Source: Sphingomonas sp. EC-HK361 (GTDB lineage: Bacteria; Pseudomonadota; Alphaproteobacteria; Sphingomonadales; Sphingomonadaceae). Taken from it: a DNA stretch of 64,000 nucleotides. Shown one piece after another: positions 1,334 to 51,966 of this stretch. The notes under the pieces were generated by a model. That model did no database searches. It was not told the origin of the DNA and saw nothing but the letters and a program-made list of their open reading frames with translations. Both the position numbers and the translations under genes were made by a program. The DNA lies in the NCBI RefSeq assembly GCF_902498785.1, contig NZ_LR701492.1, positions 104,368-168,367 of the forward strand, read 5' to 3'. Within the stretch, counting starts at the first letter, position 1. Every line of letters starts with the position of its first letter.

Positions 1334-1465
1334 CGCTATATCCGGAACGTCGCGCAGACCTGTGATTCTCTTCCAAAACTTCGCATAAAACAAGACTTGT
1401 ATCGCGCCATCTTTCGACTCACATTGGCGTCGTGGTCTTCAAGATCACGGCTTTATCAACCAGCG

Positions 1466-1479
1466 AAAGGAGGTGATCC
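1466..1479 (+). promoter_or_regulatory. Perfect 14-nt Shine-Dalgarno (full anti-SD complement)
   Basis: AAAGGAGGTGATCC pairs along its whole length with the 3' end of bacterial 16S rRNA (GGATCACCTCCTTT). The core GGAGG ends seven bases before the ATG at 1481, an optimal distance. Such full-length complementarity is rare, and it decides the start of the short ORF that follows. A downstream TATCCTCCTT (1561-1570) is nearly its complement and could sequester it. Confidence 0.7.
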
Positions 1480-1480
1480 G

Positions 1481-1537
1481 ATGTCTCATGGTTCAGCAGT
1501 GAGTTCGGTTCGGTTCGTTCGGGGGACGCGCTTCTAA
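1481..1537 (+). CDS. 18-residue peptide behind a perfect Shine-Dalgarno
   Basis: The ORF encodes MSHGSAVSSVRFVRGTRF followed by TAA. Its support is the 14-nt ribosome binding site one base upstream of the ATG, not its length. The peptide is basic, with a Ser/Val/Arg/Phe-rich C-terminus, and has no membrane segment or signal peptide. Its role is unknown; it may act as a leader peptide, a translational sensor or a ribosome-binding decoy within the structured transcript at about 1410-1694. It is oriented like the downstream RNB gene, but a terminator at 1651-1694 separates them, so it probably forms its own unit. Confidence 0.5.
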   Translation: MSHGSAVSSVRFVRGTRF

Positions 1538-1582
1538 ATCCGCCGTTTCGCCGCGGGAGGTATCCTCCTTCAATCAACGCGG

Positions 1583-1651
1583 ATGAGACACAGGAACAGA
1601 GGCTCGCATGGTCCTCCGGGCTGGAGCTCTCCGGCCGCTGACCATGTTTAG
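1583..1651 (+). CDS. Possible 22-residue second short ORF in the same transcript
   Basis: An ATG at 1583 opens 22 codons (starting MRHRNRGSHG) and ends at TAG on the first bases of the terminator stem. The only ribosome-binding-like sequence (GGGAGG, about 1555-1560) is too far upstream and sits in a hairpin. Termination exactly at the terminator base is suggestive of attenuation geometry but may be chance. I regard it as weakly supported. Confidence 0.2.
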   Translation: MRHRNRGSHGPPGWSSPAADHV

Positions 1652-1694
1652 GGGTTGTCGGGTGTTCTTTCGGGAGCATTCGGCAACCTCTTTT
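1651..1694 (+). terminator. Intrinsic terminator
   Basis: The arms 1651-1667 and 1674-1690 form a stem of 17 pairs, including several G-U pairs, around a six-base loop, followed directly by TTTT. This is the clearest rho-independent terminator in the window and closes the small-ORF transcript upstream. Confidence 0.75.
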
Positions 1695-1893: not shown

Positions 1894-3279
1894 ATGAAGG
1901 CCCTCCAAGATCCCAACCGCGCGCTGGCTGACGGCCTCGCCGCAATCCGCCTCCAATACCAGCTTCCCACCGCCTTCCCGCCCGAAGTGGAAGCCGCCGC
2001 AGCGGACGCCGCGAAACGCGCGCTCACCGCCCACGCCGATCGCACCGCGATCCCCTTCGTCACCCTCGACCCCGCGACCTCGACCGATCTCGATCAGGCC
2101 TTTACGATCGAACCCGCCGGCGCAGACCTTCTGCTCCACTACGCGATCGCCGACGTCGCCTGGTTCGTCGATGATGGCGGCGTCATCGATGCCGAAGCCT
2201 GGCGCCGCGGCGAGACGCTCTATCTCCCCGACGGCAAGGCCGGACTTTATCCGCGCGTGCTCAGCGAAGGCGCGGCGAGCCTGCTGCCCGATGGCGACCG
2301 CCCCGCGATCGTCTTCACCGTCCGCGTCGTCCCCGATGGCGCGGCGAAAATCGACGGCGTGGAGCGCGCGCGGATCCGCAGCCGGGCGAAGCTGGCCTAT
2401 GACAACGTCCGCGATACCGACCTGCCGCCCGACTTCGCCGAGCTCTCCCGCCGCATCGCCGCAGCGGAAACGCGGCGCGGCGCGGCGCGCGTCGATCCGC
2501 CTGAACAGGAAGTCGCGGCCGGGGCGGACGGTCGCCTCGCGCTCGCTTTCCGCCCGCGCCTCGAATCCGAAGCGCGCAACGCAGCGATGTCGCTCGCGAC
2601 GAACCTCGCGGTCGCGGATCTGCTCCAGGCGCATCATACCGGCCTGTTCCGCGTGATGGCCGAGCCCGACGCAAGCGCCGTAAAACGCCTCCGTCATACC
2701 GCCACCGCCCTCGGGCTGACCTGGCCCGATGAAACGCCGCTGGAATCCTACGAACGCACCCTCGACCCCGCAGACCCCCGTCAGGCCGCCTTCATGCTGG
2801 CGATCCGTCGCGCCGGAAACGGCGCCTCTTACGCGCCGTATCGCGACGGCGAGGTGCCGTGGCACGCCGCGATGGCCGCCACCTACGCGCAGGCGACCGC
2901 CCCGCTCCGCCGCCTCGCCGACCGCTACGTCGTCGAGGCGGCGCTGGCGGTGGCGAACGGAAAACCCGTGCCGCCCGCCGCCCTCGACGCCTTCCCCCGC
3001 CTCCCCAAGGCCATGGCGCGCGCCGACATGCTGAGCGGCCAGATCGACCGCGCGGTGATCGATCTCGCGGAGGCGGCGATGCTCCAGGGGCGCGAGGGCG
3101 AGACCTTCGCCGCGGTCGCGACCGACCTCGACGATCGCGGGACGCAGGTGCAGCTCCGCAACTTGCCCGTCGTCGCCCGCATCCCGGCGAACGGTGTCCT
3201 GCCCGGCCAGCCTGTCACGCTTCACCTGACGCTTGCCGACCCGATCGAGCGGCGTATCGCATTCGAACCGGTGGTCTGA
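1894..3279 (+). CDS. RNB-domain 3'-5' exoribonuclease (RNase II-like)
   Basis: The protein has 461 residues. The RNB catalytic domain begins near residue 50, with VTLDPATSTDLDQAFTIE as the metal-binding motif and YAIADVAWFVDDGG after it; the C-terminal 60 residues look S1-like. The N-terminal cold-shock domains of E. coli RNase II are missing. In the motif the last Asp of the usual DxDDA is Gln (DLDQA), a variant I associate with short RNB proteins in other phyla as well, so activity is likely but unproven. The protein should degrade RNA processively in the cytoplasm. It is distinct from the full RNase R at 29214-31535. The ATG has only a weak ribosome binding site. Confidence 0.85.
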   Translation: MKALQDPNRALADGLAAIRLQYQLPTAFPPEVEAAAADAAKRALTAHADRTAIPFVTLDPATSTDLDQAFTIEPAGADLLLHYAIADVAWFVDDGGVIDAEAWRRGETLYLPDGKAGLYPRVLSEGAASLLPDGDRPAIVFTVRVVPDGAAKIDGVERARIRSRAKLAYDNVRDTDLPPDFAELSRRIAAAETRRGAARVDPPEQEVAAGADGRLALAFRPRLESEARNAAMSLATNLAVADLLQAHHTGLFRVMAEPDASAVKRLRHTATALGLTWPDETPLESYERTLDPADPRQAAFMLAIRRAGNGASYAPYRDGEVPWHAAMAATYAQATAPLRRLADRYVVEAALAVANGKPVPPAALDAFPRLPKAMARADMLSGQIDRAVIDLAEAAMLQGREGETFAAVATDLDDRGTQVQLRNLPVVARIPANGVLPGQPVTLHLTLADPIERRIAFEPVV

Positions 3280-7575: not shown

Positions 7576-7992
7576 TCGATGGAAGGCCTTGCGCCGAGTT
7601 AACTGAGTCCTTCGCGCAACAGTAAATTTTTTTGCGATCGTGCATTCTTGCGCTTGAAAATCGCGCAAGCGGCAGAAGTCCACGCGTCGCGGCCAGAGCA
7701 GCCGCACAGGACGCCATTCCCGATGGTTTCGGCCGCATTTATCGACTTGCGCGCGGATTCGCTTTGGCACAATCTGTTGGGGTTGAGTTCGGGGGCGAAC
7801 CCAATCGCTGGTAGAACAGCCCGTGCAACCCTATATTGCACGCACGGAGTTCTGCGCGCTTTTCACAGGCGTGCGGTCCTGTTTTGTTCTTAGGCTTGGG
7901 TCGATCTCCGTGTAGGATGGGGGTTCGCCCCCGAGTCGAACGCGCTGCCCCCGGGCAGATCGGACGACACGTCGAAGCCGGGAGCGGATGAC
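7576..7992 (+). promoter_or_regulatory. Long nrdA leader with inverted repeats and NrdR-box-like sites
   Basis: No gene was found here. Two stretches resemble NrdR boxes (ACACAATATATTGTGT-like): GCACAATCTGTTGG near 7768 and CCCTATATTGCACG near 7830, both imperfect. A 14-bp perfect inverted repeat (TCGGGGGCGAACCC at 7789-7802; complement at 7921-7934) could close a stem of about 118 bases. GANTC sites, the methylation target of the cell-cycle methylase CcrM, occur near 7605, 7756 and 7933. Regulation by NrdR or the cell cycle is an inference. Confidence 0.4.
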
Positions 7993-48385: not shown

Positions 48386-48580
48386 GAACCCCCTCTGTCA
48401 CGGGACCTGAGAGCTTTGACCGCGCAGGATCTCCGCTGCGGCTTACCCCTTCGGTGGGGCGCGCCTGAAAGGCCCGCCCGCTTTCCAGAGTGTCTTGGCG
48501 TGCGCGGTCCCGTCTGCCTGAGAGATTCCGGGGTGGTTGCTCCTTCGGCGGCGGGCTTGGGCCCGCTCTCTCCCGCGCAT
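48386..48580 (-). promoter_or_regulatory. Tandem glycine riboswitch upstream of gcvT
   Basis: Read on the minus strand, a first aptamer begins GCGGGAGAGA, contains GCCGAAGGAGCAA and ends with ATCTCTCAGGCA; a linker and second aptamer follow with GGACCGCG, GACACTCTGGA, CACCGAAGGGGTAAGCC and CTCTCAGGT. This is the two-aptamer glycine riboswitch consensus. It lies 60 bp before the gcvT ATG. Glycine binding is expected to turn on the operon. The exact limits are approximate, and bases 48581-48674 contain the promoter but no recognised gene. Confidence 0.9.
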
Positions 48581-48674
48581 GCCCAGCCGGTCGCCCGACT
48601 TCGACGCTCTCGCCTCTGGCGAGCGCGCCGCCGCGAGTCAATCGACGAAAGCGCGCAGCCTCAACGAACCGCGC

Positions 48675-51885: not shown

Positions 51886-51945
51886 CGGCCGGCGAAGGGA
51901 ATGGGGTCTCCCGACAACCGCCGATCCGGCTGATGACTCCTGCTG
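51886..51945 (+). promoter_or_regulatory. Fluoride riboswitch (crcB motif)
   Basis: CGGCGAAGGGAATGGGGTCTCCC, AACCGCC and GCTGATGACTCCTGC occur in the order and form of the fluoride riboswitch (crcB RNA). The motif ends 21 bp before the crcB ATG. Fluoride binding is expected to raise crcB and probably ppa expression. Boundaries are approximate. Confidence 0.88.
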
Positions 51946-51966
51946 ACAGCTGAATGCCGAGGTGGG

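Follow-up and report, generated by a model that had tools for sequence, protein, structure and literature searches.

A short RNA locus of Sphingomonas sp. EC-HK361 raises the question of what an RNA with a maximal Shine-Dalgarno sequence does with the ribosomes that it should attract. The locus lies in the window, a stretch of 64,000 nt in which all coordinates below are positions unless another locus is named. The original prediction described a small structured transcript here and offered three readings of it: a regulatory leader, a ribosome-titrating RNA or a gene for an undescribed small peptide. The features discussed below are collected in Table 1.

Table 1. Features of the locus, in window coordinates.
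Feature	Position	Strand	Basis
Promoter-like CTTG-N19-TCACA	1396–1423	+	Motif at the same spacing in sphingomonad rows
Predicted 5′ hairpin GTGGTCT/AGATCAC	1432–1448	+	Folds
Maximal Shine-Dalgarno sequence GAAAGGAGGTGATCC, complement of 16S rRNA GGATCACCTCCTTTC	1465–1479	+	Sequence match
ORF of 18 codons, stop TAA 1535–1537	1481–1537	+	Comparison (stop position kept, peptide not)
P1 5′ strand CATGGTTCAGC, codons 3–6	1487–1497	+	Comparison, folds
Local hairpin GGAGG-TAT-CCTCC containing TATCCTCCTT	1556–1568	+	Fold; some sphingomonad rows only
P1 3′ strand GCTGACCATG, immediately 5′ of the terminator	1637–1646	+	Comparison, folds
Terminator-like hairpin and T tail	1650–1694	+	Fold; similar hairpin at most loci

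The match to 16S rRNA

The layout originally described, a 14-nt match to the 16S tail, one further base, ATG and an ORF of 18 codons, is present in all its parts at 1466–1537. AAAGGAGGTGATCC (1466–1479, forward strand) and the G before it together complement the 16S rRNA end GGATCACCTCCTTTC over 1465–1479, and a single base separates the match from the ATG at 1481, which opens the frame for the peptide MSHGSAVSSVRFVRGTRF. The claim that this complementarity goes beyond chance also stands: AAAGGAGGTGATCC has one exact match in the window, and at least 117 loci carry the core pattern. Four other matches with three mismatches bring the window total to five, in line with shuffled sequences (mean 3.08). 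Across eight relative genomes, some 47 Mb in all, there are 13 copies of the 13-mer AAGGAGGTGATCC: eight are the element, two overlap a 16S gene end and three are further sites. A 21-mer with the 16S end was matched exactly in two of these genomes and in none of the other six. An antisense 16S gene end was rejected as an explanation, as the match ends after GATCC and no rRNA family was found. ARAGORN detected no tRNA or tmRNA at the locus, and Rfam at its gathering threshold lists neither an rRNA nor a tmRNA family there.

Relationship to CC2171 and distribution

The word “undescribed” proved too strong because the window RNA is a relative of the Rfam family CC2171 (RF01867). Rfam at gathering thresholds reported no family at the locus; a permissive scan matched 1457–1605 to RF01867 at 27 bits (E 0.00083), the cut-off being 75. 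Homology was traced through sphingomonad intermediates. Of 39 sphingomonad genomes searched with the Rfam model, 38 match when E values up to 1 are allowed and 34 when the limit is about 1e-5, the latter at 35–88 bits with two above the cut-off. The weak matches of the lax search are partly chance, since six of 14 control genomes also match, one of them above the cut-off. At E 0.001, matches were obtained in 32/41 Rhodobacteraceae and 25/41 Rhizobiaceae genomes, none above the cut-off, and Caulobacter was the sole match of 14 controls. CC2171 was called at the cut-off in four of the 15 loci scanned whole. Because it falls below the cut-off yet is linked to the family by the sphingomonad intermediates, the window RNA is, as judged from sequence, a divergent CC2171 homologue outside the curated limit and not a formal member. 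In three alphaproteobacterial families, an RNA family filed under the name of a Caulobacter sRNA is carried by the majority of the genomes sampled, nearly always below the curated cut-off.

A scan of genome contigs with AAAGGAGGTGATCCNRTGTC recovered at least 117 loci with the core pattern; of the 80 titles listed, 77 name what we take to be alphaproteobacterial taxa and the other three read “Proteobacteria bacterium”. Two of the loci, L090 (44 codons), a chance-like match, and L077 (59 codons), an outlier, are counted unless filtered. A shorter pattern is present in one copy in each of eight genomes reached via these loci and, counting exact matches only, in 56 genomes of a class-wide sample of 385 and 44 of a phylum-wide sample of 299; its reversed control had no matches. 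A longer pattern, with up to two mismatches, was found in 84 of 99 Sphingomonadaceae genomes, twice in two of them. The element is usually single-copy in the Alphaproteobacteria that have it. Two sphingomonad genomes contain both CC2171-like and window-like copies (G672 with L196 and L207; G671 with L198 and L210). Distribution by plasmids was rejected: 11 records matched, all from Azospirillum and over 10–11% of the query.

Other structured RNAs were seen along the way. The window has a glycine riboswitch aptamer at 48495–48585 (reverse strand, 62.1 bits) and a fluoride riboswitch aptamer at 51888–51949 (forward strand, 52.7 bits), and the Inquilinus contig L062 has a Whalefall-1 RNA at 7753–7804 (forward strand).

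Variation in the Shine-Dalgarno sequence

The Rfam model recovered 91 loci, which are not a free sample because it rewards the conserved core; the perfect 15-mer is present in 29/36 sphingomonad, 17/30 Rhodobacteraceae and 14/25 Rhizobiaceae loci. Substitutions were counted in the 87 of these loci that have one base from site to start. There are 22 A>G, eight G>A (five at position 1, three at position 6), four C>T, two A>C and two C>G changes, some of the A>G and G>A changes coming from L190 and L194, which are probably out of register. At inner positions, A>G outnumbers G>A by 22 to 3, and 26 of the 38 changes (A>G, C>T) retain pairing with 16S rRNA. GGAGG has a predicted openness of 0.23 across 55 sphingomonad RNAs and 0.19 across 134 others, and shuffles give 0.26 (Wilcoxon 3e-4, n = 189). 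A specially exposed site is therefore not supported, GGAGG being predicted to be mostly paired and, if anything, slightly more so than by chance.

Transcription and genomic context

The RNA has the marks of a separate transcription unit. The promoter-like motif CTTG-N19-TCACA precedes it in 21 of the 36 sphingomonad rows, the window among them, compared with 0.42 in base shuffles; a generic sigma-70 scan reported no promoter at the locus. From this motif, the transcript probably starts near 1431, and not at 1410 as originally placed. The structure claimed for it is borne out by the fold of 1420–1700, which at −124.9 kcal/mol beats all 200 dinucleotide shuffles (mean −98.7; z −5.18). The hairpin and TTTT of the proposed terminator are likewise there, with 19 predicted pairs at about 1650–1691 in place of the 17 first counted. 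A generic scan requiring five Ts did not list it. A home-made rule detected hairpins followed by T-rich tails at 189 of the 206 loci. At 1700–1850 the window has a GC-rich palindromic stretch that is REP-like by eye. A second short ORF that had been noted does exist (ATG 1583, 22 codons, TAG 1649–1651); a function for it finds no support, as inspection by eye shows it interrupted or missing in L116 and L018, two close relatives.

No protein cluster of neighboring genes is common to different orders. One upstream cluster accompanies 14 loci and is virtually confined to the Rhodobacterales type (its member at L011 is Vut_1). The next protein belongs to one cluster in the window and three Bosea/Methylobacterium loci, and Pfam found an RNB domain in both members tested (the window and one Bosea locus); at other loci, an unrelated gene or one on the opposite strand follows. 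Preceded by a promoter-like motif, closed by a terminator-like hairpin and flanked by neighbors that differ across orders, the element appears to be a separately transcribed small RNA. Two neighbors are recorded here for their own sake: an RNB-domain exonuclease-like protein directly 3′ of the window RNA (1894–3279, forward strand), with an RNase R-like neighbor in L016 too, and an RF-1-domain (ArfB-like) gene, possibly for a ribosome-rescue factor, just 3′ of the RNA in about a dozen Rhodobacterales loci (3872–4288 in L011).

A long-range stem from the ORF to the terminator

A near-complementary sequence, TATCCTCCTT, had been proposed to hide the Shine-Dalgarno sequence. In the predicted fold, it pairs (1561–1570) with its own neighbor GGAGG (1556–1560), and as the hairpin is found in some sphingomonad rows only, the proposal was given up. 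The pairing that recurs is a long-range stem, P1, between codons 2–9 and the strand just 5′ of the terminator. In sphingomonads, CATGGTTCAGC (codons 3–6) stands opposite GCTGACCATG, which adjoins the terminator; the strands 5′ of the terminator are strongly conserved in this group. In CC2171-like loci, CATTGTC stands opposite GACAATG. The stem core at codons 3–5 is CATGG/CCATG in the window and CATTG/CAATG in CC2171-like loci, and base +10 is paired in 73 of 78 rows. This base covaries with its partner: G-C occurs in 49 rows, T-A in 21 and C-G in three, with T-T in one and no partner motif in four.

Duplex energies agree with this pairing. Groups were assigned by sequence pattern, and each 5′ strand was paired with its own 3′ strand or with strands swapped in from other groups; own strands were better in five of six groups. 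Mean own and swapped energies are −22.7 and −16.5 for the sphingomonads, −16.3 and −11.6 for the Rhodobacterales type, −21.8 and −13.2 for CC2171-like loci, −16.9 and −12.3 for the Rhizobiaceae type, and −19.1 and −14.4 for the others. The Bradyrhizobium type lends P1 no support, its own strands giving −10.7 and swapped ones −11.0. Imposing P1 on the window fold carries a penalty of 3.2 kcal/mol.

Length and selection of the mini-ORF

The position of the stop codon is kept. Of the 91 model-found loci, 29/30 Rhodobacteraceae and 26/36 sphingomonad ORFs have 18 codons, and the 25 Rhizobiaceae ORFs have 18–29, mostly 22–25. With model-found and pattern-found loci pooled, the ORF is closed in 208 loci, 189 of them distinct. 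A motif at codons 6–7 picked out 44 Rhodobacterales-type ORFs, and every one of them has a stop as codon 19 (TGA 20, TAG 17, TAA 7, TGG 0; Fisher 6.8e-7, a value inflated by relatedness). The same holds for 49 of 56 sphingomonad ORFs (TAA 29, TGA 17, TAG 3), whose stop-codon table alone lacks significance (Fisher 0.54, 56 ORFs). Rough trees from which codon 19 was left out require at least 20 changes at this codon both among 47 rows picked for their 18-codon length and among 60 sphingomonad rows. Such a kept stop position points indirectly to translation in the cell.

Purifying selection on amino acids was not detected in whole ORFs, for which dN/dS is 0.88–1.69 and below both false frames in none of six sets. 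The values (codons 4 to last) are 1.69 for Sphingomonadales and 0.95 for the Rhodobacterales type. They are 1.55, 1.07 and 0.88 for Rhizobiaceae-type ORFs of 22, 23 and 25 codons and 0.98 for CC2171-like ORFs of 25 codons (n = 10), these four sets having 9–11 rows. Pressure from RNA structure at synonymous sites may push the ratios up. Restricted to codons 11 to last, the CC2171-like ORFs fall under both false frames, with a dN/dS of 0.69 over 13 pairs. A column-shuffle test of amino-acid similarity was given little weight; relatedness dominates it, because all frames exceed the shuffles. The real frame had the top z in five of 12 comparisons, with one tie, and reached 18.0 against 7.3 and 10.8 in sphingomonad codons 11–18. 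Residues recur within groups (e.g. VSR..LE.GVGT), and the peptides of different orders have little in common past the first residues. Amino-acid selection on the peptide thus finds no support over the whole ORF.

Comparison with related genomes, by which the original prediction was to be judged, shows conservation of the Shine-Dalgarno site, the start, the stop position, P1 pairing and the terminator, and none of the peptide.

A ribosome-operated small RNA?

Since the RNA seems made for translation over a short, fixed span while the peptide is unconserved, the passing ribosome may matter and not its product. In our preferred reading, to which we assign a probability of about 40%, the locus encodes a translated small RNA whose effector would be the ribosome, not the peptide, holding the long-range stem open. 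A ribosome that loads on the strong site and translates the short ORF of fixed length would keep P1 open, leaving the pre-terminator strand free as a candidate sRNA seed; when initiation is scarce, P1 would close. Mutual exclusion of ribosome and P1 would be the simplest switch, and the peptide would be a by-product. The seeds of sRNAs often lie just 5′ of terminators. Translation in the cell, its competition with P1 and an action of the freed strand on targets are inferred. In favor of this reading are the kept stop, the whole-ORF dN/dS values, the covariation and duplex energies of P1, the bias of the Shine-Dalgarno changes, the signs of a separate transcription unit and the Mesorhizobium huakuii transcript described below. 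Weighing against it are the report, also described below, that most Caulobacter ncRNA regions go untranslated, the mostly paired prediction for GGAGG, the Bradyrhizobium type and the energetic penalty of P1 in the window, the dN/dS of 0.69 in the second half of CC2171-like ORFs and the sphingomonad stop-codon table. If translation is the signal, these RNAs would be a naturally occurring test case for the way RNA structure senses ribosome supply, and “noncoding” and “small-protein gene” may both mislabel them. More tentatively, and with considerable doubt, the element could be a widespread alphaproteobacterial gauge of free 30S. The longest possible Shine-Dalgarno sequence would then be the sensor and the fixed-length mini-ORF the ribosome-driven switch, the peptide being irrelevant; translation would open the stem and expose a strand regulating other mRNAs.

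We consider it unlikely that the RNA is an ordinary base-pairing sRNA whose mini-ORF is translated only to protect it from RNases or to mature it, the ribosome being a stabilizer. Such an RNA would show the start, stop and terminator equally conserved, and the conserved pre-terminator strands of sphingomonads would suit it, but stabilization alone explains neither a covarying P1 from codon 2 nor the maximal length of the 16S match.

As a 30S titrator, the RNA would use its 15-nt complement to trap free small subunits in initiation complexes that are slow or lead nowhere, with P1 obstructing the mRNA channel, and so adjust the number of free 30S. Titration, one of the original suggestions, retains a modest place because most Shine-Dalgarno substitutions (26/38) keep pairing to 16S rRNA; the near-absence of the 13-mer elsewhere in the eight genomes is also in its favor. 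We rate it slightly below stabilization. Against it, a pure trap does not need a stop at a fixed place, yet all 44 Rhodobacterales-type ORFs have one, GGAGG is not predicted to be open, and a titrating RNA would need to reach very high copy numbers.

A small-protein or dual-function sRNA gene, with a fast-evolving peptide of 14 to 26 residues as product, would explain the conserved start, frame and stop, which is the part of the original peptide-gene suggestion that survives. The residues recurring within groups, the second-half dN/dS of the CC2171-like ORFs (0.69, 13 pairs) and the column-shuffle scores, highest for the real frame in 5/12 comparisons and strongest in sphingomonad codons 11–18, point the same way. 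Against it, whole-ORF dN/dS in the six sets is never below both false frames and the peptides of different orders share little past their first residues; we hold this reading improbable, slightly more so than titration.

A transcription-attenuation leader for the next gene, the regulatory leader of the original prediction, has the layout of a leader peptide with a terminator and, in the window and one Bosea locus, an RNB-domain gene next (with two further loci in the same protein cluster), but we rejected it as very improbable because the downstream gene is not shared across orders, often being of another cluster in Rhodobacterales (RF-1 domain in L011) and elsewhere unrelated or on the opposite strand, and because a terminator-like hairpin follows the RNA (189/206 loci).

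Comparison with known systems

The literature covered on the core sequence, CC2171 and RF01867 yielded no description of the ORF. CC2171 is absent from the section of PMC5988900 consulted, and the RNA is not mentioned by name in the parts consulted of PMC11005374, PMC3927594, PMC12559287 and PMC10117765. According to the available text of PMC11701678, Rfam 15 added one covarying pair to RF01867. In Mesorhizobium huakuii, a 215-nt RNA-seq transcript was annotated as RF01867; the Northern blots described in the part consulted did not include it, because they covered novel candidates (PMC5596092). Ribo-seq of Caulobacter (Schrader 2014) found most ncRNA regions untranslated and two earlier ncRNA calls translated, the excerpt consulted leaving these two unnamed (PMC4117421).

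Among alphaproteobacterial sRNAs, Pos19 of Rhodobacter sphaeroides likewise contains a small ORF, a likeness drawn from its description only; it is described in the text consulted as a stress-induced coding RNA of 219 nt in the RpoE regulon (PMC5036791). The rnTrpL/peTrpL RNA of Sinorhizobium meliloti is likewise short and terminated and contains a translated mini-ORF, translation of the window RNA being inferred. In the sections consulted, rnTrpL is a translated attenuator sRNA that is leaderless, lies 5′ of trpE and yields a functional peptide (PMC10117765). Unlike rnTrpL, the window RNA has a maximal Shine-Dalgarno sequence, no conserved next gene and no conservation of the peptide.

The closest known system is CC2171 itself. 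The sphingomonad type differs from it in the ORF of 18 codons, in GCTGACCATG as the 3′ strand of P1 and in a longer 5′ leader. In common with RF01867, the window RNA has a CAACAA-like lead, GAAAGGAGGTGATCC and RTGTCTCAT, in the same order and on the same strand; both appear autonomous, with a long-range stem from near codon 3.
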